DNA from: Marivibrio halodurans
GTDB lineage: Bacteria > Pseudomonadota > Alphaproteobacteria > UBA8366 > Aestuariispiraceae
Direction: 5' to 3'
Length of the DNA stretch: 64,000 nt
NCBI RefSeq assembly: GCF_017963645.1
Contig: NZ_JAGMWN010000001.1
Span: forward strand, 372,001 to 436,000
Below are positions 13,286 to 29,225 of the stretch, piece by piece. A model generated the notes under the pieces. That model saw only the letters and a program-made list of their open reading frames with translations, made no database searches and was not told the origin of the DNA. The stretch's first letter is position 1. Every line of letters starts with the position of its first letter. Both the position numbers and the translations under genes were made by a program.

Positions 13286-14713
13286 TCAGGCGGCGTTGGA
13301 GGCGGACCAGATACCTTCCGCTTCCAAATCCTTCTGCGTGCGCAGGATGCCCTCCCGCAGGATCTCGACCATGGTGTCGATCTGCGAGCGCTCGATGACG
13401 AGCGGCGGGGACATGACGCACATATTGTACATCGGCCGGACGATCAGCCCCATCGCCTCGGTATGGCGGTCGATCCGCTCCCCGACCTTCTTGTCGAGAC
13501 TGAGGGGGTTGCGGCTGCGCTTGTCGGCCACCGCGTCGACGCAGGCCATCAGCCCCTGCCCGCGCACCTCGCCGACCAGCGGCAGTTCCTCCAGCTCCTT
13601 CAGCCGCCCGAGGAAATAGGGCGAGATATCGAGCACGTGCTGAAGCAGCCCCTCCTTCTCCATGATCTCGATATTGGCGAGCGCCGCGGCGCAGGCGATC
13701 GGATGACCGGAATAGGTATAGCCGTTGGCGAACATAACGCCCTCCTCGGACCGCTCGATCTCGTCGAACAGCCGTTCGGATATGGCAACCCCGCCAAGCG
13801 GGACATAGCCCGAGGTCACCCCCTTGGCGAAGGTGATGATATCCGGCGTCACGCCGAACACATCCTCCGAGGCGAACCAATGGCCGAGACGCCCGAAGGC
13901 CGTCACCACCTCGTCATGGATCAGCAGGATATCGTTCTTGCGGCAAACCTCCGCCACACGCTTGTGATAGCCGGGCGGCGGAATGATGACGCCGCCGGAA
14001 GCCAGGATCGGCTCGCCGATGAAGCATGCGATCTTGTCGGCACCGACCTCGGCAATCTTGGCCTCGAGTTCCGCGATCAAGTGATCGCCGAATTGCTCGA
14101 CCGTCATGTCATCCGGCCGGCGATAGGGATTGGGCGAGGACAGTCGGACGACCAAATCCTCCGCCACGTCCAGATAGTCGCGATCGCGCAACTTGCCGCA
14201 GCAGGATGCGGAGAGATAAGTGGAGCCGTGATATGCATCGCCACGCGAAAGAATCATTTTCTTCTCGGGCTTTCCGCGCACATTGCTGAGAAATTGCGTG
14301 AAGCGCAGCGCGGTGTCGACCGCCGTCGAGCCGCCCGTCGTGAAGAAAATCTTATTGAGATCGCCCGGCGTCATCGCGGCGATGCGCTCCGCGAGTTCCG
14401 CCGCCGGCGCGCTGGTCGAGAACCAGGGCGAGTTATAGCCGAGATGCATCGCCTGCCCGTAGAGCGCCTCGGCGATCTCCGGCCGGCGATAACCGACCTG
14501 CACGCACCACATGCCCCCCGGCCCGTCGATCAGCCGGTTGCCGGCGCCATCATAGACATAGACACCGTCGGCCCGGTCCATCACCGGACGCGCCTCGTCT
14601 CCCAATTGATCGACCATGTCCCAGGGTTGGATAAGGTGGCGCTTGGCCGATGCCTCGACGGAGGCGACATCGACGCTGCTCTCATGGCTGTTCGGGCGGG
14701 TCATGCTCTTCAT
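13286..14713 (-). CDS. Class III PLP aminotransferase
   Basis: This 475-aa omega-aminotransferase has the fold-type I signature: [14 protein letters not shown] (residues 125-138) for the phosphate site, [15 protein letters not shown] with Asp267 facing the pyridine nitrogen, and Lys297 in [10 protein letters not shown] as the Schiff-base lysine. It would move an amino group between an amine or omega-amino acid and a keto acid such as pyruvate. I start it at ATG 14713; the longer reading to 14905 runs into the operator region. It heads the minus-strand operon with the TMADH-like and methyltransferase genes and is divergent from a TetR gene. Its partner substrate is unknown; the cluster suggests a product of N-methyl-amine breakdown. 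Confidence 0.85.
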
Positions 14714-14900: not shown

Positions 14901-14924
14901 AACACTGAACAGACGTTCAGTCAA
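14901..14924. promoter_or_regulatory. BetI-type operator between aminotransferase and TetR genes
   Basis: CTGAAC (14905-14910), four bases and GTTCAG (14915-14920) form a perfect inverted repeat. It extends on the right to TTCAGTCAA and on the left to ACTGAA, fitting the pattern TTGACTGAA-N6-TTCAGTCAA seen at other promoters of this island. It lies between the two divergent genes and is probably bound by the TetR encoded next door. Confidence 0.65.
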
Positions 14925-15081
14925 ATTACGTCGTTCAACTTTCGATTTCATATCGCTTCTCGATGTCGCATCATGGCGCGTCCCCAAGGCTTTGGAGATA
15001 CCGCGAGGCACGCGGCGAAGCTCATGCGGACGATCATCCCTTAGCCCGAACAACGGACAACAGTGACAGGATAGCGCCCCC

Positions 15082-15765
15082 ATGGCCAAGGCACGCAAGG
15101 CCGACGCGCCGACCACCCGGATCGAGAAGAAGGAAGCCACGCGCCAGCAGTTGATCGCGGCGACGGTGGAGGTTATCGCGGCGGACGGCTTCGCGGACAT
15201 GACGCTCGCGAAGGTTTCGCAACGCGCGAACGTGTCGCGGGGGCTGGTGAATTTCCACTTCACCAGCAAGGAGCGCCTGCTGGTCGAGACCCTGCGGCAT
15301 CTAACGGAGGAATACCGGGCGAGTTGGTCCAGGGCGATCGCCGGACCGCGCACGGCGCGCGACAAGTTGCTGGCGCTGATCCGCGCGGACTTCAGCCCGC
15401 GCGTCTGCAATCGCAAGAAAATCGCGGTCTGGTATGCCTTTTGGGGCGAGGCGAAGTCGCGACCGACCTATCTGGAAGTCTGCGCCAAGGCTGACGGCGC
15501 CTTCGCCCAGACCGTGGAGGAGCTTTGCGTCGAAATCGCGCGCGAAGGCGGCTATGCCGTCGATGCCGCGCTCGCGGCCCGCGGCCTGCGCTGCATTACC
15601 GATGGACTCTGGCTTGAACTCCTGATGGCACCGCAGCAGTTCCGCCGCGATATCGCGATCCGGACATGCCTGCAGTATCTCGCGGCCCTGTTTCCAAACG
15701 ATTTCCTGGGCTCCGAATACGATCATCTGACGCAGGCCGTCCTGGAGCGCGAAACCCCCGCCTAA
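15082..15765 (+). CDS. BetI-like TetR-family regulator (paralogue 1)
   Basis: This 227-aa repressor has an N-terminal HTH over residues 19-65, with TLAKVSQRANVSRGLVNFHF as the TetR recognition region. The ligand domain contains KKIAVWYAFWGEAKSRPTY, a signature of BetI-type proteins that sense choline and related quaternary amines. It is divergent from the aminotransferase operon and stands upstream of the ABC importer, with operator-like palindromes on both sides (14901-14924 and 15834-15914). It probably represses both directions until a quaternary or methylated amine binds. The start is ATG 15082, close to AGGATAGCGC. Two further paralogues lie at 27740 and 28550. Confidence 0.85.
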   Translation: MAKARKADAPTTRIEKKEATRQQLIAATVEVIAADGFADMTLAKVSQRANVSRGLVNFHFTSKERLLVETLRHLTEEYRASWSRAIAGPRTARDKLLALIRADFSPRVCNRKKIAVWYAFWGEAKSRPTYLEVCAKADGAFAQTVEELCVEIAREGGYAVDAALAARGLRCITDGLWLELLMAPQQFRRDIAIRTCLQYLAALFPNDFLGSEYDHLTQAVLERETPA

Positions 15766-16113
15766 CCCCCGGCTTGCCCGCCAACTTAGGCGAACCGAAG
15801 CCATCTCCATGAGTCGCGCGCCCCTCACTGAACGACTGTATAGTCAAAAATTACGCGCTATATACTTGACGCGACGCGCGTCAGGGCCATACGATTGAAT
15901 GAACGTTTAGTGAAACGTCGAGGATTTGCCGACGGGCGGCGCAGAATCCGACCATCGGATCCGGCATGTGCCGGCGCGAAAGTGACAACGACATCCGGCC
16001 AACGGGTGGCCTATGGATTGGGGCTGGCGCGCGCCATGCGCGGGCACCTCCGATATCGCATATCGTCGATACGCCGACGTCGAACACAATCGAACTCTAC
16101 TGGGAGACAGAGG
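15766..16113. promoter_or_regulatory. Promoter/operator region of the ABC importer operon
   Basis: This 348-bp non-coding region has several symmetrical sites. GACT-GTAT-AGTC lies at 15834-15845. TGACGCG and CGCGTCA form a perfect 7-bp inverted repeat with a 3-base spacer at 15867-15883. A partial BetI-type site follows, with right half TTTAGTGAA at 15906-15914 and GATTGAA before it. The importer promoter is presumably here; TTGACG at 15866 could be a -35 box but I cannot fix a -10. GGGAGACAGAGG precedes the binding-protein start. Confidence 0.5.
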
Positions 16114-17235
16114 ATGCAGATCAAGGACAAGGTTAAGGCTTTTCATGACGGCGCCCTTAGCCGCCGCGACATGCTGAACGGCCTGGCCGCGATCGGTGTC
16201 GGGGTCGCGATGGCGCCGATCCTGCCGCGCACCGCGCGGGCCGCCGGCTCGGACGCCATTTATTTCACCTGGGGCGGTTACGACATCCCCGACCTCTTCA
16301 AGCCCTATATAGAAAAACATGGCGAGGCGCCGAGCTTCGCCACCTTCGGCGGGTCGGAGGAAGGGCTGACCAAGATGCGCGCCGGCTATGTCGTCGATGT
16401 CTCGCATCCCTGCAACCAGGCGGTTCCGCGCTGGGTGGCGACCGGCCTGTTCCAAACCGCCGACCCGTCGCGGCTTTCCAATTGGTCGGACGTCATCCCC
16501 TCGCTCTACGAGCTGGAAGGCAACATGGCGGACGGCCGCCCCTACATGGTTCCGATGGAATGGGGCCAAACCTCGGTCACCTATCGTACCGACCTCGTCG
16601 ACCTGCAGGGCGAGCCGGAATCCTGGGGTATCCTCTGGGACGAGCGCTATAAGGGCCGGTTGGGCTCGCTCGCCTCGGCGGCCGACGCCTGGTGGGTCGG
16701 CGCGATCTATGCCGGCGTCGATTTCGAGAACATGGCGTCCGACGAGGCATTCGAGAAGATCGCCGCCGTGATGCGCGAGCAGCGTCCCCTGATCCGCACC
16801 TATACGGATGAGACCACGTCGCTGGAGCAGGCGCTGGCCTCGGGCGAGATGGTCGCGGCCATGACCTGGAACGAATCCGCCGCCGCGCTCAAGAACCAGG
16901 GTCTGCCGGTCAAGTTCGCCGCTCCTAAGGAAGGCGCGCTGACCTGGGTCTGCGGCGCGATGATCCACAAGGAAGCGCCGAACATCGACCTCGCCCACGA
17001 CATCATCGATTCCCTGATCAGCACGGATACCGGCAAGTTCCTGATCGGTGAGTACGGCTATGGGCACTCCAACGCCAAATCCTTCGAGGCTTTCTCCGAG
17101 GAAGATCTTGCGGCGAAGGGCCTCAGTTCCAATCCGAACGACATCCTTGCGGCCGGAAAGTTCCAGATTCCGCAGAGCCAGGAGTTCGAGACGCGGATGA
17201 ATCAGGAATTCGAGAACATTAAGGCCGGCTTCTAA
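16114..17235 (+). CDS. Spermidine/putrescine-type ABC substrate-binding protein
   Basis: This is a 373-aa periplasmic binding protein of the PotD/PotF family. A twin-arginine-type leader is visible: LSRRDMLNGLAAIGVGVAM, followed by a likely cut at ARA-AG near residue 43. The mature part begins with a strand typical of the family (IYFTWGGYDIPDLFKPYIE) and has WGQTSVTYRTDL and MTWNESAAAL in the binding lobes. It delivers a cationic amine to the permeases encoded downstream. Substrate preference cannot be read, but the surrounding genes favour a quaternary or methylated amine over polyamines. The start is ATG 16114; the open frame extends upstream to 15895 through the operator region and is not translated there. 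Confidence 0.9.
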   Translation: MQIKDKVKAFHDGALSRRDMLNGLAAIGVGVAMAPILPRTARAAGSDAIYFTWGGYDIPDLFKPYIEKHGEAPSFATFGGSEEGLTKMRAGYVVDVSHPCNQAVPRWVATGLFQTADPSRLSNWSDVIPSLYELEGNMADGRPYMVPMEWGQTSVTYRTDLVDLQGEPESWGILWDERYKGRLGSLASAADAWWVGAIYAGVDFENMASDEAFEKIAAVMREQRPLIRTYTDETTSLEQALASGEMVAAMTWNESAAALKNQGLPVKFAAPKEGALTWVCGAMIHKEAPNIDLAHDIIDSLISTDTGKFLIGEYGYGHSNAKSFEAFSEEDLAAKGLSSNPNDILAAGKFQIPQSQEFETRMNQEFENIKAGF

Positions 17236-17468
17236 GTTTCGCCGGCGCCACAAGAATTCCTGGTTGGTCACCGATGTCGCCGCCCGCGCCGCAGCATGCC
17301 GGTGTGGGCGGCGGCAGCGGTGCTACCGGATTTGGATTTTCGGTGTAAGATTTTCGGCGGTTGTTCCGCTCCTACCCGTCGATCGTTCCGGACTTGAGGC
17401 AGCGTTACGCCCAACGTCGCGCATGCCGTCGGGACCGGCCGATCGGATGATCGCGAGAGGTCGAACAC
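17236..17468. other. Binding-protein to permease spacer
   Basis: This 233-bp stretch has no gene. Its first half is GC-rich with GCCGCC...GGGCGGCGGC pairing potential around 17278-17315. Such spacers often allow more binding protein than permease to be made. It lacks a clear T-run, so partial termination or RNA stabilisation is a guess. Confidence 0.35.
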
Positions 17469-18401
17469 GTGGTTGATGCAACCTCGCTGAGCGAACCCGA
17501 ATTAACGGAGTCGCGACCACGCGGCGGTCGCTTGGCGACCCTTTTCCGACGAAGCGAGAGCCTGCGCGGCTATGCCCTGCTCTCCCCGACACTGGCGGTC
17601 ATGGCGCTGGCCATGTGCGCGCCGACGGCCATGATGGTGGCGTTGAGCTTCTGGGTTCAGTCCGGCTTCGACATCACCATGACCTTCACGCTCGATAATT
17701 ACGCGAAGGTCTTCACCAATCCGATCTTCGAGGCACTGTTCCTGCGCACCCTGATGATCTCGGGAACCTGCGCGCTGGCGACCGTTCTGATCTCCTATCC
17801 GATGGCCTATTACGTGGCCTTCCACGTCCACCGGCGGAAACTCGCCTGGGTCATCATGATGACGCTGCCCTTCTGGACCAGCTATCTGCTGCGCGTTTTC
17901 TCCTGGAAGGTGGTGCTCGGCTATAACGGCGCGATCAATTCGGGGCTGATGTCGCTCGGCCTGATTTCCGAGCCGCTGGAGTTCCTGCTCTACAGCCCGG
18001 AAGCCGTCATCATCACGCTGGCCCATGCCTGGGCCGCCTTCGCGATCCTACCGATCTATGTCTCGCTTGAGAAAATCGACCGCTCCCTGCTGGAGGCGGC
18101 CGCCGACCTCGGCGACGGCGCGGTCGCCCGGTTCCTGCGGATCACGCTGCCGCTCTCCATGCCGGGCGTGATCGCGGCGCTGCTGCTGATCTTCATCCCG
18201 ACCTTCGGCGATTTCGTGACGCCCGCGCTGGTCGGTGGGCCGGATGGCATGATGCTGGCCAATATCGTCCAGAAGATGTTCGGCAAATTGAACGATTGGC
18301 CGCTCGGCTCGGCGCTGGCCATCTCCATGATGATCATCGTGTCGATCATGTGCGGCGGCCTTATCTGGGTCACGCGTCAGATCAAGGAGCGCGCGATATG
18401 A
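17469..18401 (+). CDS. ABC transporter permease (PotB/PotH type)
   Basis: This 310-aa inner-membrane protein has about six spans. A cytoplasmic N-terminus of about 30 residues precedes the first helix (LLSPTLAVMALAMCAP). The EAA loop that contacts the ATPase is seen as EAAADLGDGAVARFLRITLPL (around residue 210). It starts at GTG 17469 with GAGAGG upstream. Its stop overlaps the start of the second permease (ATGA). The two permeases would form the channel for the amine captured by the preceding binding protein. Confidence 0.9.
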   Translation: MVDATSLSEPELTESRPRGGRLATLFRRSESLRGYALLSPTLAVMALAMCAPTAMMVALSFWVQSGFDITMTFTLDNYAKVFTNPIFEALFLRTLMISGTCALATVLISYPMAYYVAFHVHRRKLAWVIMMTLPFWTSYLLRVFSWKVVLGYNGAINSGLMSLGLISEPLEFLLYSPEAVIITLAHAWAAFAILPIYVSLEKIDRSLLEAAADLGDGAVARFLRITLPLSMPGVIAALLLIFIPTFGDFVTPALVGGPDGMMLANIVQKMFGKLNDWPLGSALAISMMIIVSIMCGGLIWVTRQIKERAI

Positions 18402-19216
18402 GCGCCGGCGGATACATGCACCGCCCGAACCGGCCGTTGATGGTCTATGCGATCGGGTATCTCGCCTTTCTCTACATGCCGATCCTGCTGCTGCCGTTGT
18501 TCTCCTTTAACGACGCGATCTATATCGCCTTTCCGTTGAAGGCGTTCACGACGCAATGGTACCAGCAGATGTTCGCCAACGACGCGATGCACGCCGCGCT
18601 CATGAACAGCGTTCAGGTCGGCGTCAGCGCCTCGGTCCTGGCGACCATACTCGGGATCTTCGGGGCGAAGGCGGTCACGCGTTTCCGCATCAAGGGCGTG
18701 AAGCCGGTCCTGGGCGTGGTCATGCTGCCACTGGTGATCCCGCCGATCATCATGGGCGTGGCGCTGCTGATCCTGCTGAGCCAAATGGGGATTCCGCTCT
18801 CGCTCATCACCGTGACGGTCGGGCATGTGCTGATCTGCGTGCCCTTTTCCATCGTGACGCTGATGGCGAGCTTCGAGGGCTTCGACAAGTCGATGGAGGA
18901 GGCCGCCGCCGATCTCGGCGACAATGCCTGGTGGATCTTCTGGCGGGTCACCTTCCCGATGGTCTTCCCGGGCATCCTGGCGAGCCTGCTGCTGTGCTTC
19001 ACCATCTCGTTCGACGAGTTCATCATGGCCTTCTTCCTGGCGGGAACCGACCCGACCCTGCCGATCTTCATCTATGGCCAACTCCGTTTCCCGCAGAAGC
19101 TTCCGGGCGTATTGGCGCTCGGCACCTGCATCGTCGCGGTCACCTTCACGGTGGTCTTCCTGGCGCAATGGTTGCGCGGACGCGGGCCCACCGCCCCCAA
19201 GACAGAAGGGAACTAG
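18398..19216 (+). CDS. ABC transporter permease (PotC/PotI type)
   Basis: This 272-aa membrane protein starts MSAGGYMHRPNRPLMVY with the first span at about residues 16-38. The EAA motif is visible as EEAAADLGDNAWWIFWRVTFP. It is the partner of the PotB-type permease and is coupled to it by an ATGA overlap. It is followed 4 bp later by the ATPase gene behind AAGGGAACTAGGCGG. The reading frame extends upstream to 18296, inside the previous gene, and is not used. Confidence 0.9.
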   Translation: MSAGGYMHRPNRPLMVYAIGYLAFLYMPILLLPLFSFNDAIYIAFPLKAFTTQWYQQMFANDAMHAALMNSVQVGVSASVLATILGIFGAKAVTRFRIKGVKPVLGVVMLPLVIPPIIMGVALLILLSQMGIPLSLITVTVGHVLICVPFSIVTLMASFEGFDKSMEEAAADLGDNAWWIFWRVTFPMVFPGILASLLLCFTISFDEFIMAFFLAGTDPTLPIFIYGQLRFPQKLPGVLALGTCIVAVTFTVVFLAQWLRGRGPTAPKTEGN

Positions 19217-19220
19217 GCGG

Positions 19221-20330
19221 ATGTCTTCCGACGACTCCTTCCTGAATATCGAACAGGTCACCAAGCGCTTCGGCGCGGTTGTGGCCGTGGATCGAGTGAA
19301 TATCGCGATCCGCACCGGCGAGTTCTTCTCGCTGCTCGGACCCTCGGGCTGCGGCAAGACGACATTGCTGCGCATGCTGGCGGGCTTCGAAACCCCGGAC
19401 GAGGGCGAGGTCTATATCGACGGCGTGCCGATGTCGGGTGTCTCCCCCCATGTCCGGCCGACCAATATGGTCTTCCAGAGCTACGCGATCTTTCCGCACC
19501 TCAATGTCGAACGGAATGTCGCCTATGGCCTGCGCAAGGAGAAGCTCTCCAAGCAGGAAGAGGCCAAACGCGTCGACGAGGCGCTGGAGATGGTGAAGCT
19601 CGGCGGCTACGGCAAGCGTAAGTCGAACGAACTCTCCGGCGGGCAGCGCCAGCGCATCGCGCTGGCCCGCGCGCTCATCCGCCGGCCGAAGGTGCTGTTG
19701 CTGGACGAACCGCTGGGCGCGCTGGACAAGAAGCTGCGCACCGACATGCAGATCGAGTTGCGACAGCTCCAGCAATCGCTCGGCATTACCTTCGTCTTCG
19801 TCACCCACGATCAGGAGGAAGCCATGACGCTTTCCGACCGGATCGCGGTGATGGCGCAGGGCAAGGCGCTGCAGGTCGCCTCGCCCAAGGATATCTACAA
19901 CCGCCCGACCAGCATGACCGTCGCCGATTTCATCGGCCAGATGAACTTCATCGAGGCGTCCGTCGGCCAGGTCGCGGATGGCGTCGCGGCGCTGGAGGCC
20001 AAGGGGCTCGGCCGTATGAAGGCGCATATCAACGGCACGGCGGTGACGACGGGCGCGCATATGATCGCCGCGCTCAGGCCGGAGAAACTCTCCCTCACCG
20101 ACAGCGAGCCGAACGGCGGAGGGAATGTCGTGAAGGGACGGATCGAAGCCGCCGCCTATCTCGGCGACCGCAGCCATTTCCACGTGCGCGTGGACGGGCT
20201 CGACCAACCGCTCGCCGTGGCCGCGCCCGACCTTCCCTTCGTCGGCGACGGTGCGAAGCAGGAAGGACGGCCGGTCTGGCTCACCTGGGCCGACGATTCC
20301 GTGATCCTGCTCGACAAGGATACGCGTTAG
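19221..20330 (+). CDS. ABC transporter ATPase (PotA type)
   Basis: This 369-aa nucleotide-binding subunit has Walker A GPSGCGKTT (residues 40-48), a Q-loop in MVFQSYAIFPH, the signature LSGGQRQR (138-145), Walker B VLLLDEPLGALD and the switch His in FVTHDQEEAM. The last 110 residues form the TOBE-like regulatory domain typical of PotA/MalK proteins. It energises uptake through the two permeases before it. It ends the importer operon; the next plus-strand gene lies 548 bp away beyond an operator. Confidence 0.93.
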   Translation: MSSDDSFLNIEQVTKRFGAVVAVDRVNIAIRTGEFFSLLGPSGCGKTTLLRMLAGFETPDEGEVYIDGVPMSGVSPHVRPTNMVFQSYAIFPHLNVERNVAYGLRKEKLSKQEEAKRVDEALEMVKLGGYGKRKSNELSGGQRQRIALARALIRRPKVLLLDEPLGALDKKLRTDMQIELRQLQQSLGITFVFVTHDQEEAMTLSDRIAVMAQGKALQVASPKDIYNRPTSMTVADFIGQMNFIEASVGQVADGVAALEAKGLGRMKAHINGTAVTTGAHMIAALRPEKLSLTDSEPNGGGNVVKGRIEAAAYLGDRSHFHVRVDGLDQPLAVAAPDLPFVGDGAKQEGRPVWLTWADDSVILLDKDTR

Positions 20331-20353
20331 ATCCGGAAGGCGCGTGGGGACCG

Positions 20354-20692
20354 TCAATCCGACGGACGCGCGCCCTCCCCCTGCTCGCCCGTTCGGGACG
20401 ATGACGCGTTATCGTCGTCCGCCGCCTTCGTCTCCTTCGGGCGGATGGGATTGTCGAGGCGCCTGAACCGGCGCTTGCAGCCACAATCCTCGACCGGCTC
20501 ATCGGTCCGGGGCTCCGCAACCGGCGGCTCCTCCTCGCCGGCCCATGCGGCCGTGTCGCGGCCACCCACGGCAGGCGCGGCCGTCATTAAAAGCCCCAGC
20601 AAACCGATCCCCAGCAGCGCCGTTGCCGATTTACGCCCACCGACCGGGCGCCGCCGCCCGCGCTTGGATAATCCCGTTCCATGCATGCGCAT
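20354..20692 (-). CDS. Possible small secreted or anchored protein
   Basis: This 112-aa minus-strand frame lies between plus-strand operons. It has a basic start (MRMHGTGLSKRGRRRPVGGR), a hydrophobic segment ATALLGIGLLGLLMTAAPAV, then an acidic, disordered tail containing one CGC pair. This could be a signal-anchored periplasmic peptide. There is no family match, no clear ribosome site, and the ending abuts the ATPase gene. It may be non-coding; the hydrophobic run is the main argument for it. Confidence 0.35.
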   Translation of the reverse strand: MRMHGTGLSKRGRRRPVGGRKSATALLGIGLLGLLMTAAPAVGGRDTAAWAGEEEPPVAEPRTDEPVEDCGCKRRFRRLDNPIRPKETKAADDDNASSSRTGEQGEGARPSD

Positions 20693-20772
20693 TTCCAGCG
20701 TCTCTATTCAGAATCCCATGCCATCACAATGGCACGTAAACACATGAATTAGAATGTATAAGATTCCATAGT

Positions 20773-20796
20773 TTGACTGAAAAGTCATTCAGTGAA
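20773..20796. promoter_or_regulatory. BetI-type operator upstream of the FAD-oxidoreductase operon
   Basis: TTGACTGAA (20773-20781), six bases and TTCAGTGAA (20788-20796) form an inverted repeat with eight of nine positions matching. It has the same 9-6-9 design as the site at 28447-28470. It lies about 85 bp before the first oxidoreductase start and is probably the binding site of one of the three BetI-type regulators. Confidence 0.65.
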
Positions 20797-20878
20797 CTGG
20801 ACAGCGTCACCCCGCGCGCCTAGACTGGCCGCGGATTTCATGGGGCCACCGCCCCTTCGCGAAACAGGAGGTTCAGGC

Positions 20879-22471
20879 GTGAAACGCTATGACGCCATCG
20901 TCATCGGCGCCGGACATAACGGCCTGGCGGCCGCGGCCTATCTGGCGCGCGGCGGGCTGGAGGTTCTGGTGCTGGAACGGCGCGACGCGATCGGCGGCGC
21001 GGCGATCTCGGAGGAACGGCATCCCGGGTTCACCTATTCCTCCTGTTCCTATGTCTGCAGCCTGCTTCGGGCGGAGATCATGCGCGATCTCGACCTGCCG
21101 AAGCATGGGCTGAAAATCATCCCCTACGGCACCACGGCGTGCCTGATGCGGGGCGGCGATCGTTTCGCGATGTATCCGGACGCCGACCAGACCCGGCGGG
21201 AAATCGCGCGCCATTCCGCCCGCGACGCCGATGCGTTCGACGAGTTCATGCGCGACCTCTATCGCCAATGCCGGGCGATCCGCCCGCTTCTCCTGAAGAC
21301 GCCACCGGACCCGACCAGCTTCAAGCCGCGCGACATCAAGGGCCTGCTGGAGATCGGCCGCGCCTTCGGTCAGTTGGACGAGGACGCGCTCTATCAGGCG
21401 ATGCAGTTCTGGACGATGAGCTGCGGCGATTTCCTCGACCGCTATTTCGAATCCGACGTGGTGAAGGGGGCGCTGGCCGGGGGATCGATCATCGGCACCG
21501 CGCTCGGCCCTTATTCGCCGGGCAGCGCCTATGTGCTGCTGCATCATGTGATGGGCGATCTGGACGGCCATGTCGGCGCCTGGGGTTTCGCCGTGGGCGG
21601 CATGGGCGCGATCAGCAAGGCGCTGGCCGGCGCCGCGCGCGAGCATGGCGCGGAAATCCGCACCGGTGCGGAGGTGTCGGAGATCTTGATGCAGGGCGAC
21701 CGCGCGGCGGGCGTCGTGCTGGCCGATGGCGAGGAGGTGCGCGCGCGCACCGTGGTCTCCAATCTCGACGTGAAGCGCACCTTCCTCAAACTCGCCCCGC
21801 GCAAGCATCTGCCGGGCGCGTTCGTGGACCAGGTGGAACGGTTCAAGATCCGGGGATCGTCGGGCAAGCTCAATATCGCGCTCGACGCGCTGCCGGACGT
21901 ACCGGCGCTGCGTCACGATCCGAAGCTGATGCGCGGCGGGCTCAATGTGGGCGACTCGCTCGAATACCTGGAGCGCGCCTATGACGACTGGAAGAACGGT
22001 ACCTGGTCGAAGAAGCCCTATCTCGACATCTTCATCCCCTCGACGCTGGATTCCTCGATGGCGCCACCGGGCAAGCATTATATGTCCGTCTTCGTGCAAT
22101 ATGCGCCCCCGACACTCGCCGACGGCCCTTGGACGGCGGAGAGCCGGCAAGCCTTCGGCGATACCGTTCTGGACACGATCGAATCCTACATGCCGGGTTT
22201 CCGGAAGCTCGTGCTCGACGCCTGGGTCCGCACCCCCGCCGATATCGAGGCGGAAGTCGGCCTGACCGAAGGAAACATCTTCCAGGGCGAATTGACGCTC
22301 GACCAGCTTCTCTTCAACCGGCCCGTGCCGGGCTATGCCCAGTACCGCTCCCCCATCCGGGGGTTCTACATGTGCGGCTCCAGCACCCATCCGGGCGGCG
22401 GCGCCATGGGCGCGCCGGGCGCCAACGCGGCGCGCGAGATGCTGCACGACCTGAAGCGGAGGGCCGCATGA
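20879..22471 (+). CDS. FAD-dependent oxidoreductase, phytoene-desaturase/PYROXD2 type (first of pair)
   Basis: This 530-aa flavoprotein opens with a Rossmann dinucleotide motif VIGAGHNGLAAAAYLARGG (residues 8-26) and closes with the second FAD motif MCGSSTHPGGGAMGAPGANAA. That pair is typical of the phytoene-desaturase-like amine oxidoreductase group. It would remove hydride from a C-N or C-C bond of a small substrate; the exact reaction is unknown. It starts at GTG 20879 behind CAGGAGGTTCAGGC. It is coupled to a second, divergent copy by an ATGA overlap, then to the GcvT-like gene, which suggests the pair feeds one-carbon units to folate. Confidence 0.8.
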   Translation: MKRYDAIVIGAGHNGLAAAAYLARGGLEVLVLERRDAIGGAAISEERHPGFTYSSCSYVCSLLRAEIMRDLDLPKHGLKIIPYGTTACLMRGGDRFAMYPDADQTRREIARHSARDADAFDEFMRDLYRQCRAIRPLLLKTPPDPTSFKPRDIKGLLEIGRAFGQLDEDALYQAMQFWTMSCGDFLDRYFESDVVKGALAGGSIIGTALGPYSPGSAYVLLHHVMGDLDGHVGAWGFAVGGMGAISKALAGAAREHGAEIRTGAEVSEILMQGDRAAGVVLADGEEVRARTVVSNLDVKRTFLKLAPRKHLPGAFVDQVERFKIRGSSGKLNIALDALPDVPALRHDPKLMRGGLNVGDSLEYLERAYDDWKNGTWSKKPYLDIFIPSTLDSSMAPPGKHYMSVFVQYAPPTLADGPWTAESRQAFGDTVLDTIESYMPGFRKLVLDAWVRTPADIEAEVGLTEGNIFQGELTLDQLLFNRPVPGYAQYRSPIRGFYMCGSSTHPGGGAMGAPGANAAREMLHDLKRRAA

Positions 22472-24033
22472 CCACCGGCAACGCGAAACATTATGATGCC
22501 ATCGTCATTGGCGGCGGGCACAACGGCCTCGTCGCCGCCGCGCTGATGGGGCAGATAGGCAAGCGCACGCTGCTCATCGAGGCATCCGCCGAGCTGGGCG
22601 GCATGGCGGTCCACGCGCCGGCCATCGGGCGCCTGTCGGAGACGGTGGTCCGCGCCCTCGCCCTGGACCGGCACGGCCTACGCTTCCGCACACGTTCCCT
22701 GGCGACGGAGATCCTGCGGGAGGGGACCTCCCCCCTCCCCCTCCAGCCCGACGACCCGGCGGCGACACGGCAAGCGATCCACGCGCTTTCCCCGGCCGAC
22801 GCGGAGGCTTGGCCGCATTTCCAGCAACGCATGGCGCGGCTGGCCGCCGGCCTCGCCCCCTTCCTGGAGCGCACGCCGCCGCGCCTAAGGCTCGACGATT
22901 GGGGGGAGCGCTGGGAGCTCGCCCGGCTCGGCTTCGCGGTGCGGCGCATGGGGCGGGCCGACATGCGCGATCTGTTGCGCATCCTGCCCCTCAATGTCGC
23001 CGATCTGGCGGAGGAGGTGTTCGAGAGCGATGTGCTGCGCGGGCTCCTTTCCTTCGACGCGGTGCTCGGCAACCGGATGGGCGCGCGCTCCCCCAACACG
23101 GTCTTTCCGCTGCTGATGCGCCATGCCGGCGGCGCGGGCTGCCGGCCCGGCACGCAGGCCGTTGCGGAAGGCGGCACCGCCGCCCTGATCGACGCGTTGA
23201 GGAAGGCGGCGGCCTCCCATGGCGTCGAGATCAGGACCGATGCCCCCGTCGCCCGCATTCTGGTGGAGGACGGCCGCGCGACGGGCGTCGAACTGACGGA
23301 CGGCGGGACGATCCGGGCTGGAACGATCCTGTCATCCGCCCATGCGGGAACGACGCTTATCGACCTGGTCGGGCCGCGTCATCTGGATACGGACTTCACG
23401 CGCGCGGTGCGCCATGCGCGCGGCGCCGGCGTGACGGCGCATCTGATCCTCAACCTCTCCGCGCCGCCGGCGGGGGGCGATCCCGACACCCTCGCCACCA
23501 CGCGCCGTGTCCACGCGCCAAGCATCCAGGCGGTGGAGCGCGCCTTCGACCGCGCGAAATACGGTGAGTTGCCGGAGGACCCGCCCTTCGAAGTGACCGT
23601 CGTGAACGAGGGCGAGGGGCACGCCCGCGCCCATGCGCTGATCCAATACGTACCCGGCGACTTGAAGGACGGTGACTGGAAGACGGAACGGGACGCCTTC
23701 ACCAAGCGCCTCGTCGCGCGGATCGAGGATCTGTGCCCCGATCTGGCCGGACGGGTCGAGGGCGCGCACCTCGCCACGCCCGCCGACATCGCCGCGCGCC
23801 ACCGCGCGCCGGGCGGCCATTGGCATCATCTGGAAACGGGATTGGATCAGGCCTTCATGCTGCGCCCGGTCCCCGGCTGGGCCCAATATCGAACGCCGAT
23901 AGAGGGCCTCTTCCTCTGCGGGGCGAGCACCCATCCGGGCGGCTGGATCAGCGGACAACCCGGCCTCAACGGCGCGCGCGCGGCGCTCGCCGCCGAGAAG
24001 GCGTCCGGCAAGGTGAAGGGAGAAGCCGCATGA
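22468..24033 (+). CDS. FAD-dependent oxidoreductase, phytoene-desaturase type (second of pair)
   Basis: This 521-aa paralogue of the preceding protein has the FAD motif VIGGGHNGLVAAALMGQIGK (residues 12-31) and the C-terminal LCGASTHPGGWISGQPGLNGA. The middle regions of the two proteins differ considerably, so the copies have probably specialised, possibly as subunits of a heteromer. It overlaps the genes on both sides (ATGA at each junction), so the three are translated together. The adjoining GcvT-like gene suggests a sarcosine- or dimethylglycine-oxidase-like outcome in which the methyl carbon goes to tetrahydrofolate. Confidence 0.8.
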   Translation: MTTGNAKHYDAIVIGGGHNGLVAAALMGQIGKRTLLIEASAELGGMAVHAPAIGRLSETVVRALALDRHGLRFRTRSLATEILREGTSPLPLQPDDPAATRQAIHALSPADAEAWPHFQQRMARLAAGLAPFLERTPPRLRLDDWGERWELARLGFAVRRMGRADMRDLLRILPLNVADLAEEVFESDVLRGLLSFDAVLGNRMGARSPNTVFPLLMRHAGGAGCRPGTQAVAEGGTAALIDALRKAAASHGVEIRTDAPVARILVEDGRATGVELTDGGTIRAGTILSSAHAGTTLIDLVGPRHLDTDFTRAVRHARGAGVTAHLILNLSAPPAGGDPDTLATTRRVHAPSIQAVERAFDRAKYGELPEDPPFEVTVVNEGEGHARAHALIQYVPGDLKDGDWKTERDAFTKRLVARIEDLCPDLAGRVEGAHLATPADIAARHRAPGGHWHHLETGLDQAFMLRPVPGWAQYRTPIEGLFLCGASTHPGGWISGQPGLNGARAALAAEKASGKVKGEAA

Positions 24034-25247
24034 CGACCGCCACCGCCACCACCATGAGCCCGGCGCAGACCCAGACACCGATGCTGCCGCGCGGCCCGAT
24101 GCTGAAGCGCAGCCCGTTCCATGAGCGGCTCGCCGCCCTCAACCTCGCCAACGCGTGGGAAGCATGGCAGGGTTATACGACCGCCAGCCTGTTCTACGAT
24201 GCGGAGGACGAATATTTCGCGATCCGCACCGGCGCCTCGCTCTACGACGTCTCGCCGATGCTGAAATACCGCATCGCCGGACCGGAGGCGGAGGCCGTCG
24301 TCGATCGCCTCGTGAGCAAGCGGATCGACAAGCTGAAGCCCGGCCGCGTCACCTACGCCCCCTGGTGCGACGCGCGCGGGCGGGTGATCGAGGAAGGCAC
24401 GATCTTCCGCCTGTCCCCGACGGAATTCCGCATCAACTGCGCGGAACACCAACTCGCCTGGTTCTCGGAGACCGCGCACGGTTTCGACGCCCAGGTCGAG
24501 GAGGTGACGGAGGAAATCGCGGGCCTTGCCCTGCAGGGACCGACATCGAAGCAGGTTCTGGCCGATATCGGTCTGGCGGAGGCGGCCGCCCTACCCTTCT
24601 TCGGCATCGGTACCTTCAAGGGTGCGGGAGGCTATCCGGTAACGGTGAGCCGCACCGGGTTCACCGGCGATCTGGGCTATGAACTCTGGGTGGCGCCGGA
24701 GCATGCCCTGCCCCTGTGGGACGCGCTGATGGCGAGAAGCGATCTTCACTATCTGCGGCCGATCGGCTCGCGCGCGCTCGACGTCGCGCGGATCGAGGCC
24801 GGGCATATCCTGATCAATGTGGAGTTCGTCGGCGCCCGGCATGCCATCCGCCCCTCGCAGACGCGCACACCGTCGGGGCTGGGGCTCGACTGGGCGGTCG
24901 ATCTGGCGAAGCCGCATTTCAACGGCCGCCGCGCCCTGATCGCCGAGCGCGAGGCGGGCGGGCCGAAGCGCCGCCTGGTCGGCCTCGACGTCACGGGACG
25001 CAAGCCGGCGACGGGCGCCTATCTCTATCATCGCGGGCGGGAAGTCGGCCAAGTCACCTCCGCCACATGGTCGCCGATCACCAAGCGCAATATCGCGCTG
25101 GCTACCGTCGAGGCGCGATACGCAACCGAGGGCACGGTGCTGGACGCCGAAATCTACTATATGAAGGAAGTAACCCAGGGGAAGGTCGACGCCGCCGCGA
25201 CGATCGTCCCCCCGCGCTTCTATCAACCCGGCCACCGGCGCGGTTGA
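24030..25247 (+). CDS. GcvT-like aminomethyltransferase (folate-binding)
   Basis: This 405-aa protein is of the glycine-cleavage T family, which also forms the folate domain of dimethylglycine and sarcosine dehydrogenases. An N-terminal tail of 45 residues is followed by the GcvT core: GASLYDVSPMLKYRIAGPEA, then AGLALQGPTSKQVL, SRTGFTGDLGYELWV and ARIEAGHILINVEF. The C-terminal barrel has SATWSPITKRNIALA. It probably transfers a one-carbon unit from the flavoprotein imine to tetrahydrofolate. The start is ATG 24030 in an ATGA overlap with the second oxidoreductase. This lies in a catabolic cluster, separate from any gcvHP genes. Confidence 0.85.
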   Translation: MTTATATTMSPAQTQTPMLPRGPMLKRSPFHERLAALNLANAWEAWQGYTTASLFYDAEDEYFAIRTGASLYDVSPMLKYRIAGPEAEAVVDRLVSKRIDKLKPGRVTYAPWCDARGRVIEEGTIFRLSPTEFRINCAEHQLAWFSETAHGFDAQVEEVTEEIAGLALQGPTSKQVLADIGLAEAAALPFFGIGTFKGAGGYPVTVSRTGFTGDLGYELWVAPEHALPLWDALMARSDLHYLRPIGSRALDVARIEAGHILINVEFVGARHAIRPSQTRTPSGLGLDWAVDLAKPHFNGRRALIAEREAGGPKRRLVGLDVTGRKPATGAYLYHRGREVGQVTSATWSPITKRNIALATVEARYATEGTVLDAEIYYMKEVTQGKVDAAATIVPPRFYQPGHRRG

Positions 25248-25263
25248 GGGGAAAGAACCCACG

Positions 25264-26502
25264 ATGCAGCAGGACCGCCCGCCGGGGTTCGAGCCCTTTC
25301 CGCATCCGCCCGTCGCCGCCGAGGCGGAAACGGGCTTGAGCGCGCGCCAACGCCGGCGCGGCCTGATCGCGGTGTTGGCGAGCCTGCTGGCCGCGGGCCT
25401 GACCTTCGGCACCTCGATCCCGCTGCTCGCCCTGCTGATGGAGCGGGATGGGGTCTCCACCACGATGATCGGCCTCAACTCCTCCATGCCGTTGCTGGCG
25501 ACGATCCTGATGTCGACGGCGACGCCGTGGATCGTGCGGCGGCTGGGTGTCATCCCGACGCTGATGGCGGGAATCGTGCTGATCGTGGTGGGTTTCCTGG
25601 GCATGGCGGCCTTCCGCTCGCTGGAGGCTTGGTTCGTTCTGCGTTTCCTGGTCGGTGTCGGCATGTCGGTCCATTGGGTGATCAGCGAAACTTGGCTGAA
25701 CAGCGCGGCGAAGCCCGGCAATCGTGGCCTTATGGCCGGGCTCTACGCCGCCCTGATGGGGATCGGTTTCGCCGGCGGCCCCGCGATGCTGACCATCCTG
25801 CCGATCGACGGCTGGACGCCCTTCCTGGTGATCATCGGCTTCGTGGCCCTGGCGGCCGTGCCGATCCTGTGGGCGGCGGGCGCGGCCCCGCGCCTCGACC
25901 TGACGAGCGAGAGCGGACGCTGGTCCGCCCTGCGCCTCGCGCCGACGATCTTCCTAGCGATCTTCGTTTCCGGGCTGGTCGATACCGCGATGCTCTCGCT
26001 CCTGCCGATCTATGGTCTGCGTCATGGCTTGGCGCAGGAGGAGGCGGTGCTGCTTCTTTCCGTCGCGGTGGCGGGGACGGTTGTGCTGCAGGCCCCGCTG
26101 GGGCTTCTCGCCGATCGCGTGAACCGGCGCGCGCTGCTGCTCATCGTCGGGACGGTGGGGCTGGCTGGCGCCCTTCTGCTTCCCCTCGTCCTGGCGGAGA
26201 CATGGCTGCGCTGGCCGCTGCTCTTCATCTGGGGCGGGACGGTGGCCGGGCTCTACACTGTGGCGCTCGCCGATCTCGGCGCGCGGTTCGAGGGGGGTGC
26301 GCTGGCGGCCGCGAACGCCCTCTTCGTCATGAACTACTGTATCGGAAGTCTGCTCGGCCCGTCGGTCGCGGGCAGCGCCATGGACGCGGTCGGGCCGGAC
26401 GGATTCGTCCTGACGGTTTCCACGGCGCTCGGCCTGTTCCTGGCGATCGGGGTCGCGCGGACGCTCTGGATGCGCGGCCGGCGGCCACGGGCCCCGACTT
26501 GA
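25264..26502 (+). CDS. MFS transporter
   Basis: This 412-aa major-facilitator protein has about 12 hydrophobic spans. The loop 2-3 motif is seen near TPWIVRRLGVIPTLMAG and again in the second half as GLLADRVNRRALLLIVG. The first helix, LIAVLASLLAAGLTFGT, follows a 30-residue cytoplasmic start. It ends the plus-strand catabolic operon, 16 bp after the GcvT-like gene. It resembles the YcaD-type subgroup and may import or export a cluster substrate or product. It converges on the Rieske gene with a 44-bp gap in which I see no clear terminator. Confidence 0.85.
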   Translation: MQQDRPPGFEPFPHPPVAAEAETGLSARQRRRGLIAVLASLLAAGLTFGTSIPLLALLMERDGVSTTMIGLNSSMPLLATILMSTATPWIVRRLGVIPTLMAGIVLIVVGFLGMAAFRSLEAWFVLRFLVGVGMSVHWVISETWLNSAAKPGNRGLMAGLYAALMGIGFAGGPAMLTILPIDGWTPFLVIIGFVALAAVPILWAAGAAPRLDLTSESGRWSALRLAPTIFLAIFVSGLVDTAMLSLLPIYGLRHGLAQEEAVLLLSVAVAGTVVLQAPLGLLADRVNRRALLLIVGTVGLAGALLLPLVLAETWLRWPLLFIWGGTVAGLYTVALADLGARFEGGALAAANALFVMNYCIGSLLGPSVAGSAMDAVGPDGFVLTVSTALGLFLAIGVARTLWMRGRRPRAPT

Positions 26503-26546
26503 TCCGACTCAATCCGGGAGCCCGCGGGCCGTCTACCGCCGACGCA

Positions 26547-27743
26547 TCACCCCGCCGCCGCCAGCTCCGCATCCCGCGCGGCGACCGTGCCGGGCGCCGG
26601 CGCCACGGTCAGCGTCGTGACCGGACAGGCCGCGCGCACGCGGTCGTGCAGTTCCTTCACCCCGTCCTCGTAGATCGAGAGGGGGCCTGGATTATAGCCA
26701 TGGCTGCGCAGGCCCTTCTGGACCCGTTCGCTGAGCCACCGGTCCTCCGCCAGCACCATGCGGTTGATGCGGTCGTTGAGATAGCGCAGCACCCGCATCT
26801 CCCGCCGATCGTCCGCCTGCCCGTAGAGGCCGAGGCGAACCTGACAACGCCCCTGCCCCAGCGGCAGGATCTGGAAGAAATCCATGCTGTCGGGATAAAC
26901 GTCGATGCCGTGGTTCGGCAGCATGCTGAAGAATTGCCAGGTGCTCCGCTTCTCCTCCGGCAGGTGGGTCAGCACCTTCGGCGCCAGATCCTGATACATC
27001 CGCTCCACCCAATTGGGGGACGGACGATCCTTATGCCGGCTGACGCTGCCGCCGATGCCGAAGCTGTTGCCGAAGCCACCCATGCCGCTATCCAGCATCC
27101 GGTGATAGCCCGGATGGCCCATCGGGATGTGATAGTTCTCCTGGTTATTATCTACGGCCGTCTTCCAGTCGCAATTCCAGACCTGATCGATCATGGGCCG
27201 CACGCCGACCATGGTCTCCGGCCGGTAGGGCTCGATCAGCTTGGCGTAATCGCCCCACATCTCCGCGAGGCTCGGCCCCTCGCCCGCGACGCGCACGAAG
27301 ACGAACCCGAGGAAAACCTCGTGCTCCACCGTGTTGAGGCCGAAGCAGTTCTTGTCCAGGCCGGGAAAAGTGCTCTCCGCCGGGACACCCGCGAGACGAC
27401 CGTCCAGCGCATAGGCCCAGCCGTGATAGGGACACAGCAGACGCCGACGCAGAGTGCCCCGCCCGTCCAGCAGCTTCGCCCCGCGATGGCGGCAGACATT
27501 ATGGAAGGCCCGGATCGTGCCGTCGGCGTCGCGAACGATGGCGATGGAATCGCGCATCAGGTCGAACACCATGTAATCGCCCGGGTTCGGCACGTCGTTC
27601 TGATGACAGGCGACCTGCCATGTTCCGAGGATCAGCCGTTCATATTCCAGCGACAGCAGTTCCGAGTTGTCGTAGGTCCAGGCCGGCAGACCGTGGACCG
27701 CCTCGCGCCGGACATCGGCGTTCTCGGGATCGCGAATGCTCAT
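26547..27743 (-). CDS. Rieske non-heme iron oxygenase, CntA/GbcA-like
   Basis: This 398-aa ring-hydroxylating-type oxygenase alpha subunit has the Rieske 2Fe-2S cluster at Cys84, His86 (CRH) and Cys104, His107 (CPYHGW). The mononuclear iron site is in DNNQENYHIPMGHPG with His203 and His208. The bridging residue is Glu200 rather than the Asp of naphthalene dioxygenase, a feature reported for carnitine and glycine-betaine monooxygenases. It probably hydroxylates an N-methyl or C-N carbon of a quaternary amine, releasing formaldehyde or an aldehyde. No reductase gene is nearby, so electrons must come from a general ferredoxin reductase. Its start overlaps the TetR gene upstream (ATGA). Confidence 0.87.
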   Translation of the reverse strand: MSIRDPENADVRREAVHGLPAWTYDNSELLSLEYERLILGTWQVACHQNDVPNPGDYMVFDLMRDSIAIVRDADGTIRAFHNVCRHRGAKLLDGRGTLRRRLLCPYHGWAYALDGRLAGVPAESTFPGLDKNCFGLNTVEHEVFLGFVFVRVAGEGPSLAEMWGDYAKLIEPYRPETMVGVRPMIDQVWNCDWKTAVDNNQENYHIPMGHPGYHRMLDSGMGGFGNSFGIGGSVSRHKDRPSPNWVERMYQDLAPKVLTHLPEEKRSTWQFFSMLPNHGIDVYPDSMDFFQILPLGQGRCQVRLGLYGQADDRREMRVLRYLNDRINRMVLAEDRWLSERVQKGLRSHGYNPGPLSIYEDGVKELHDRVRAACPVTTLTVAPAPGTVAARDAELAAAG

Positions 27744-28426
27744 GATGCCGCTCCTTCTCGTGATTGCTCCTCGTCATGGCCCGGGGCCACATGCCATCTC
27801 GGCTCGTTCGGAAAGACCGTCGCCAGATAGCTGATCGCCAAGTCCCGCGCGGCCGCCCGATCGAACGACCGGCCCGCGACCAACGCATCCTGCCAAAGCC
27901 CGTCGATCAGCCCGCCCAGGCCGCGCGCCAGCGCCTCCGCCGCGCGCCCTTCATTCCGCGCGCCGGTTCCGGCGAGCATCCGCCGGCACAGAGTCAGAAG
28001 GTCGGCCTGAAACACCGCATCCGCCTCCCCCACCCGTTCGAGATAGAGGCGCCGTGCCTTTGCCTCCCCCCAAAAGGCGGTCCAAACGGCGATAGCGTCC
28101 GGCGCGCTTATTCTGGGGTCGAGCGATATGTCGATCAGCCGTTCCAACGCCCGGGCCGGATCGTCACCGGCCTCCATGAGGACCCGGCGGCGCGCGCCCT
28201 CGAACATCGCCACCACATGATCCAGCGCCGCCAGCAGCAGCGCGTCCTTGCGCGCGAAGTGAAAGGTGACGGAGCCAGGCGAGATACCGGCCCGGCCGGC
28301 CACCCGTTCCATGGTCGTGCCGGACAGCCCCTGGCGCGCGATCACCCAGAGGGTGGCACCCAAGATCCGTTCACGGTTCACGCGCGACCGGGTTTCCCGA
28401 CCGGCCCCTGGGGTGACATTCGCCAC
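27740..28426 (-). CDS. BetI-like TetR-family regulator (paralogue 2)
   Basis: This is a 228-aa repressor. The HTH is visible as TMERVAGRAGISPGSVTFHF around residues 37-56. The ligand domain has AIAVWTAFWGEAKARRLYLE, the BetI-type stretch shared with the other two paralogues. It starts at GTG 28426 with GGAG eight bases upstream, and its stop overlaps the Rieske gene start, so regulator and oxygenase form one transcript. The operator-like site at 28447-28470 lies immediately before it, suggesting autoregulation and control of the Rieske gene. Confidence 0.85.
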   Translation of the reverse strand: MANVTPGAGRETRSRVNRERILGATLWVIARQGLSGTTMERVAGRAGISPGSVTFHFARKDALLLAALDHVVAMFEGARRRVLMEAGDDPARALERLIDISLDPRISAPDAIAVWTAFWGEAKARRLYLERVGEADAVFQADLLTLCRRMLAGTGARNEGRAAEALARGLGGLIDGLWQDALVAGRSFDRAAARDLAISYLATVFPNEPRWHVAPGHDEEQSREGAAS

Positions 28427-28446
28427 GATATGCTCCGGGCTTGAAA

Positions 28447-28470
28447 TTGACTGAATATACGTTTAGCGAA
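28447..28470. promoter_or_regulatory. BetI-type operator before the TetR-Rieske operon
   Basis: TTGACTGAA (28447-28455), six bases (TATACG) and TTTAGCGAA (28462-28470) form a partial inverted repeat with the 9-6-9 spacing seen at 20773. The site is 21 bp upstream of the TetR start, so a bound repressor would block transcription. Confidence 0.55.
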
Positions 28471-28549
28471 ATCATCTAAAAAAGTCAACCACGGGGGCGG
28501 CGCAACAAACCAACCCACTGTTTCTTCTAGGTTTAAAGGAACGTGGTCG

Positions 28550-29185
28550 TCAGACTTCGAAATGCCTGGGGAACAGCGATGCGAGAAACGCCTTCGCATT
28601 GGCGAGGGCCTCTTCCCGTTTCATCTCCTTGGGATAAAGCAGAACCTGGAGCCAGAGCCCGTCGATCACGGCTTCCAAATTGCGTGCGGCGACCTTGGGG
28701 ACGATTTCGTCATAGCCGCCCGCCGCCGCCAAGTCGGCGCACAGATTTTCCAAGCGTTCGCGCCGGTGATCGTCATGGGCGCTCTGGATCGCCAGATAGG
28801 TCGGCCGGTGCCTTGCCTGCCCCCAGAAGGCGAACCAAACCGCCACCTTCCGGCGCGAACAGACGGCCGGCGCGAAATCCGCGGCAACGACGGCCGACAA
28901 TCGTTCGGCCGGGTCCGGTCCGGCCTGGTCGAGCGCACCCTGCCAATGCACTTGATGCTCATCGGCCAAGGCGCGCAGCGTCTCCGCATAAAGCGCTTCC
29001 TTGCTGACGAAATGGAAATTGACCGTGCCGTGCGAGAGACCCGCTTCCTCCGTCACGCTGTTAAGGGTGGTACCGGACAACCCCCGTTTCGCGATCGAGG
29101 ATATGGTCGCTTCGATCAACTCCCGCCGACGTGCCTCGCGGACACCGCCGCGTCCCGCTCCAACCGTATCACCGCGTCGCGCCAT
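28550..29185 (-). CDS. BetI-like TetR-family regulator (paralogue 3)
   Basis: This is a 211-aa repressor close to BetI. The HTH is TLNSVTEEAGLSHGTVNFHF and the ligand domain has RKVAVWFAFWGQARHRPTYL. I start it at ATG 29185; an in-frame GTG at 29203 would add six residues. A perfect 14-bp palindrome (29212-29225) stands just upstream. Unlike the other two it is not co-transcribed with an obvious enzyme gene here, so it may be the true choline/betaine regulator or a master regulator of the island. Confidence 0.85.
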   Translation of the reverse strand: MARRGDTVGAGRGGVREARRRELIEATISSIAKRGLSGTTLNSVTEEAGLSHGTVNFHFVSKEALYAETLRALADEHQVHWQGALDQAGPDPAERLSAVVAADFAPAVCSRRKVAVWFAFWGQARHRPTYLAIQSAHDDHRRERLENLCADLAAAGGYDEIVPKVAARNLEAVIDGLWLQVLLYPKEMKREEALANAKAFLASLFPRHFEV

Positions 29186-29211
29186 CAGGCCGGCCTTCAC
29201 CACACATTAAC

Positions 29212-29225
29212 TGACTGATCAGTCA
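29212..29225. promoter_or_regulatory. Perfect palindrome upstream of TetR paralogue 3
   Basis: TGACTGATCAGTCA is a perfect 14-bp palindrome. It uses the same half-site letters (TGACTGA / TCAGTCA) as the 9-6-9 sites but without the six-base spacer, so it may be read by paralogue 3 only. It is placed about 27 bp before the ATG, as expected for an autoregulatory operator. Confidence 0.65.

Follow-up and report, generated by a model that had tools for sequence, protein, structure and literature searches.

A predicted TetR-type regulon with two operator classes in a catabolic gene island of Marivibrio halodurans

Why should one catabolic gene island carry three TetR-type regulators, and which DNA sites would each of them read? 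The question is raised by a 64,000-nucleotide stretch of the Marivibrio halodurans genome (contig NZ_JAGMWN010000001.1, positions 372,001 to 436,000; hereafter the window), in which tetR1, tetR2 and tetR3 lie among genes for an ATP-binding cassette (ABC) importer, an aminotransferase, two flavin oxidoreductases (FAD1 and FAD2), a GcvT-like protein and a Rieske oxygenase. A sequence-only reading of this DNA had described related palindromes at the island promoters as a regulon, served by three BetI-type regulators that arose by duplication. The regulon of palindromes with its TetR proteins survives our analysis, whereas the duplication and the equation with BetI do not. With a probability of roughly 0.6, we favor a TetR-type repressor regulon for uptake and oxidative breakdown in which TetR1 acts on one class of operator (class A), TetR3 regulates its own gene through a second (class B), and TetR2 serves as a second reader or modulator.

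All five palindromes that had been listed are present (S1 through S5; Table 1), and the observation is stronger than first noted. Class A has the core TTGAAYNNNNRTTCAA, extended in this genome to TNACTGAA-N6-TTCAGTNA. When up to three mismatches are allowed, TTGACTGAA-N6-TTCAGTCAA matches the window three times (S1, S3 and S4), compared with no match in 100 dinucleotide shuffles. At the same tolerance, TTNACTGAA-N6-TTCAGTNAA occurs at five places in the whole genome (an assembly of 4.18 Mb in 22 contigs), four of them in the island and the fifth a perfect copy far away on contig C18, against one for the backwards control. A relaxed palindrome with at most one mismatch is found at six places, which are the five class-A sites of the island plus the C18 copy, and the control gives none. 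The sequence-only reading had proposed such a genome-wide scan, and the motif proves to be confined to these places rather than scattered at random density. Its list had overlooked one island site, S6, and had entered S2 as partial; the relaxed scan and a matrix from other organisms (19.1 bits) both make S2 a full member of the class.

That matrix was built from 13 operators of other organisms, and its four highest scores in the window fall on S3, S4, S2 and S1, in that order, whereas 30 Markov-1 sequences give a mean maximum of 9.6 bits and a highest value of 17.7 bits. S6 and S5 score 8.3 and 11.1 bits. Because the 13 sites were first chosen with a matrix made from sites of the window and of a sister species (genome G001), the test is not fully independent.

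The same sister species carries a syntenic island, in which several operators are better conserved than their surroundings. Comparing each site with the remainder of its upstream piece, and counting gap columns as differences, identity is 88 against 41% for S3 (FAD1), 92 against 32% for S4 (tetR2), 100 against 17% for S5 (tetR3), and 67 against 28% for the distant C18 site. The region between the aminotransferase gene and tetR1 gives 42 against 34% with pieces cut to 220 bases, a cut that leaves the G001 site outside; the sites align when the whole regions are realigned.

Homologous loci extend the pattern further. FAD1 was used to search named genomes and the best 80 loci were followed up, many of which combine FAD1-FAD2-GcvT with genes for a solute-binding protein, ABC components, an aminotransferase, a methyltransferase and a Rieske protein. 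The core matrix finds 87 matches in them (three overlapping pairs and the training sites included) and none in the reversed control. For the upstream counts, aminotransferase matches below 45% identity, Rieske matches below 33% and genes less than 300 bases from a locus end were excluded. The core lies within 300 bp upstream of FAD1 in 35 of 78 cases, of the aminotransferase gene in 23 of 33, of the Rieske gene in 11 of 34 and of the first permease gene in 20 of 49. In a 26-locus subset picked after the core-matrix scan (25 loci rhizobial by title and one Comamonas metagenome-assembled genome (MAG), L149), the corresponding counts are 26 of 26 (partly circular), 22 of 23, 10 of 10 and 20 of 22; a gene-body control gives 0 of 633. 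The subset leaves out 54 of the 80 loci, namely all those below L147 and 17 later ones, among them four of Hyphomicrobiales (L131, L137, L171 and L179). Two of these, L171 and L179, have a core match nearer their tetR.

One class-A operator lies far from the island. The perfect palindrome TTGACTGAACAATTGTTCAGTCAA (C18:92845-92868) precedes a PhyH-family gene (PF05721) by approximately 20 bp, and the sister species has TTCATTGAACGTACGTTCAATGAA near a closely similar PhyH gene. There the longest open frame spans the site, which is upstream of the gene only if an internal ATG about 22 bases farther on is taken as the start. A PhyH homologue is absent, at 1e-10, from the best 80 FAD1 loci; at 1e-60, 3 of the 386 genomes sampled from this class carry one, M. 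halodurans itself among the three, with the sister species outside the sample. An OYE-type oxidoreductase gene converges on the phyH region (C18:92017-92868, which is L015:5018-5869).

Could these palindromes simply be chance sequences with no regulatory role? We regard this as extremely improbable. It would sit well with the lack of enrichment of the full 24-mer in 15 relatives, and with the class-B 14-mer, which at three mismatches is not significant in the window, but it is contradicted by the genome scans, by conservation above that of the surrounding sequence, by the core matrix against its reversed control, and by the way this core recurs at the equivalent promoters of rhizobial loci. 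A common palindrome at the promoters of pathway operons and of regulators, above the genomic background, is what marks a local TetR catabolic regulon, and it is found here. Judged from the sequences, this appears to be a real, conserved TetR regulon.

The spacer-less palindrome before tetR3, TGACTGATCAGTCA, had been taken for a version of the other sites. It is present, but represents a separate operator class. With at most one mismatch there is a single copy in each of the two genomes of the genus, M. halodurans and the sister species, both before tetR3, and none in two further genomes, G002 and G004. At up to three mismatches the window holds two copies against 1.49 expected. The occurrence once per genome before tetR3, together with the matrix score of 11.1 bits, rules out S5 as a class-A site.

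The identity of the regulators also needed revision. BetI is a choline-responsive repressor. All three island proteins exceed the Pfam cut-offs for TetR_N and TetR_C_6 (PF00440 and PF13977), and are thus TetR-family proteins with the BetI-type C-terminal domain, as their earlier designation implied. They are not BetI, however: with the equivalog model TIGR03384 (cut-off 201.3 bits) they score 113.8, 91.0 and 131.7 bits. TetR3 passes the older PRK00767 BetI model (124.9 against a cut-off of 118). A true BetI is encoded elsewhere in the genome (C18:193878; 230.6 bits), and the palindrome upstream of it (L014:6490) is ATTGGACGGTCAAT, not the class-A motif. The likeness to BetI lies in the TetR fold, in PF13977 and in the siting of the regulators next to what is probably a methylated-amine pathway. 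The differences lie in these scores and this separate BetI with its own palindrome, in the recognition helix (SRG, SPG or SHG...FHF in the island, SSGIIHHYF in BetI), and in the absence of BetA and BetB from the NCBIfam matches listed for the 10 + 3 island proteins scanned, where some profile tables comprise the best 25 matches and the major facilitator superfamily (MFS) transporter and second permease were covered by Pfam only.

Nor do the three proteins look like copies of one another. The segment AVWxAFWGxA, from which duplication had been argued, is indeed common to them but is not special to them, being present in 18 of 99 collected rows, including the three regulators and three of the sister species; the same position reads AWLSFWAQ or AWLAFWAQ in three BetI rows. 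An approximately unbiased (AU) test rejects a single clade of the three proteins and their G001 counterparts (p 0.000145, on a quick tree of 47 of the 99 rows, after mis-framed paralogue rows, misaligned fusion rows and redundant rows had been removed), and with it a recent triplication of one TetR within the island. In a tree that still held misaligned fusion rows, with one branch of 9.3, each regulator groups with different outside proteins: TetR1 with two proteins of family f126 (support 99/94), TetR2 with L148 and L119 (98/95), and TetR3 with L111 and L063, from a Rhodospirillaceae MAG and genome G275 (100/94). Counting homologues inside the fetched locus only, 23 of the best 80 loci have no TetR, 52 have one, four have two, and one, that of the sister species, has three, so that the remark that three in one island is unusual was a fair one. 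Since related rhizobial clusters with the same operator mostly show one regulator, the three in this island seem to have been added from separate lineages.

Which protein would read which class? We infer repression, an inducer and the following pairing. A TetR1 dimer would most likely bind the class-A palindrome at the promoters of aminotransferase/tetR1, the importer, FAD1-FAD2-GcvT, tetR2-Rieske and the distant phyH gene, and would leave these sites on binding an inducer. The regulon would control the uptake and oxidative breakdown of a methylated amine or polyamine-like compound, and the enzyme families suggest such a compound. TetR3 most likely represses its own gene through the class-B palindrome. 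TetR2, probably co-transcribed with the Rieske gene, may be a second class-A reader or a modulator. TetR1 is pointed to, imperfectly, as the class-A reader because its helix SRGLVNFHF resembles the SRGIVNFHF of rhizobial TetR proteins and begins with the same SRG, whereas TetR2 has SPG and TetR3 has SHG at this position.

These differing helices also count against the proposal of the sequence-only reading that all three proteins recognize variants of a single operator and answer to successive pathway intermediates in a nested cascade. In its favor, there are three BetI-type regulators in the island, the class-A sites are graded variants, and a palindrome stands upstream of each tetR gene. Yet the tetR3 site belongs to another class and occurs once per genome, a single TetR homologue is seen in most of the rhizobial loci, and the three proteins do not form one clade (although common specificity would not require that they do). 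We therefore consider the cascade unlikely. A division of class A, in which TetR2 reads S2 and S4 (the importer and the Rieske gene) and TetR1 reads S1, S3, S6 and the phyH site, seems to us quite improbable. S2 and S4 are identical at 18 of 24 bases and both carry the asymmetric half CTAAACGT-N2-ATTCA on one strand, of which the sister-species S4 retains CTAAACGT. That S4 goes on with GTTCA instead of ATTCA, however; S3 and S4 also agree at 18 of 24 bases, and S3 agrees with S6 and with the phyH site at 19.

Returning to the assignment of TetR1 to class A and TetR3 to class B, the likeliest mode of action, as judged from consensus scans, is repression by promoter occlusion. S2 overlaps the end of a promoter-like element, S3 stands one base ahead of a -35-like hexamer, and S5 follows directly on a -10-like hexamer. 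Chance alone would give 0.3-0.4 such elements per stretch scanned; none was found by these scans for the aminotransferase or tetR2 direction. Occlusion is least certain at S3.

Several observations weigh against the assignment or against the regulon as a whole. S3 precedes its promoter-like element instead of lying within it, and activation is therefore possible there. S1, at 17.3 bits, is inside the null range of the matrix, the 13 matrix sites were themselves picked with window and sister-species sites, and the 26-locus subset was chosen after the core-matrix scan. The sister-species counterparts of S3 and S4 score 14.5 and 14.8 bits, just below the threshold of 15, and no counterpart of the importer operator precedes the G001 importer (one picked out there by eye was dropped at 0.9 bits). 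No core lies within 300 bp before any of 34 solute-binding-protein genes in the best 80 loci (0 of 23 in the subset), nor within 300 bp of FAD1 in the four Hyphomicrobiales loci left out. The full 24-mer is found at nine places in the 15 relatives compared with 10 for the control, and it is therefore the core, not the extension, that is widely conserved. Finally, the nearest homologues of TetR1 outside the genus (L054-L057), which share SRG, have no class-A site within 1.5 kb, and L112, whose TetR also has SRG, has none nearby.

The pairing of operators with operons appears older than the present regulator set: in the rhizobial loci a single TetR homologue is the commonest case, and the sister species has four such regulators. 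The fourth, TetR4 (L037:5052-5690), is of BetI type and divergent from FAD1, with the S3 counterpart between them; the corresponding place in the window has no tetR4 equivalent and holds a small open frame instead. A more speculative extension, which we hold tentatively and think doubtful, is that across Alphaproteobacteria the class-A operators have remained with their operons, whereas the regulators that read them came and went and were drawn from distinct BetI-like lineages (one homologue in the majority of rhizobial loci, three in this island, four in the sister species). Several regulators with different inducers might then compete for a fixed set of sites and so form a logic gate for a methylated-amine pathway.

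Cholesterol catabolism likewise has two TetR repressors, KstR and KstR2, of which KstR2 has its own palindromic motif (PMC3068626). That system concerns another family, substrate and set of organisms; its regulons and binding were established by experiment, whereas in the island two operator classes are what is seen. Closer relatives are the single-TetR clusters of rhizobia such as Shinella granuli and Rhizobium sp. SL42 (on a plasmid by annotation), which are homologous FAD1-FAD2-GcvT operons with the same core and a homologous TetR. The rhizobial clusters differ in their number of TetR homologues (one in 23 of the 26 subset loci), in having no site at the solute-binding-protein gene and in having no PhyH homologue in the locus. 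The regulon proposed here would provide a widespread catabolic cluster with a defined operator and connect a remote phyH gene with that cluster, and the presence of one, three or four regulators on matching operators offers a natural comparison for the separate evolution of repressors and operators.

Table 1. Proposed operators and island genes in the window (bits are scores with the other-organism matrix unless a family model is named)
Feature	Coordinates	Strand	Remarks
S1, class-A operator	14901..14924		between aminotransferase operon (-) and tetR1 (+); 17.3 bits; sister counterpart L037:11067
S6, class-A operator	15824..15847		upstream of importer operon; from genome scans; 8.3 bits
S2, class-A operator	15891..15914		upstream of importer operon; overlaps end of promoter-like element 15866-15895; 19.1 bits
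S3, class-A operator	20773..20796		upstream of FAD1-FAD2-GcvT operon; abuts promoter-like -35; 20.5 bits; rhizobial loci have a site similarly placed
S4, class-A operator	28447..28470		about 20 bp upstream of tetR2-Rieske; 19.4 bits
S5, class-B operator	29212..29225		spacer-less TGACTGATCAGTCA; upstream of tetR3
S-adenosylmethionine-dependent methyltransferase	10333..11127	-	family matches all under their cut-offs
Flavin mononucleotide oxidoreductase, FadH/OYE type	11183..13234	-	PF00724
Class III aminotransferase	13286..14713	-	NF005447, 709.6 bits (cut-off 618)
TetR1, BetI-type C-terminal domain	15082..15765	+	PF00440, PF13977; helix SRGLVNFHF; proposed main class-A reader
Polyamine-type ABC importer (solute-binding protein, two permeases, ATPase)	16114..20330	+	cut-off passed by ATPase only (potA, 377.7 against 355.6)
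Small open frame, CGCK motif	20354..20692	-	divergent from FAD1
FAD1, CrtO-like flavin oxidoreductase	20879..22471	+	family profiles
FAD2, CrtO-like flavin oxidoreductase	22468..24033	+	family profiles
GcvT-like protein, possibly folate-dependent demethylase	24030..25247	+	PF01571, PF08669
MFS transporter	25264..26502	+	PF07690
Rieske oxygenase	26547..27743	-	top match among named models is GbcA (152.2 bits), far under cut-off 670
TetR2	27740..28426	-	overlaps Rieske gene, probably co-transcribed with it
TetR3	28550..29203	-	proposed autoregulator on class B

The gene set of the island points to a substrate of the methylated-amine or polyamine-like kind, to judge from family names, most of which were assigned under their cut-offs. 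Literature on homarine, trigonelline and stachydrine yielded nothing tying the cluster to a substrate, and among the matches listed no paper was recognised from its title or abstract opening as being about this cluster.

A palindrome scan upstream of tetR genes elsewhere was too noisy to be used alone, and only its helix strings and a handful of named palindromes are used here. Near the TetR genes of L058, L170 and L171, whose helix has SHG, are palindromes of the form TGAYTGA-N4-TCARTCA, with a spacing between those of the two classes in the window; L183 (at 7875), also with SHG, does not fit this pattern. Near those of L130, L140, L177 and L184, with a VNLHF-type helix, are palindromes of GAATGA/TCATTC repeats. 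Lastly, the stretch VEDCGCKRR of the small open frame beside FAD1 matches, by eye, an open frame that follows tetR4 in the sister species.

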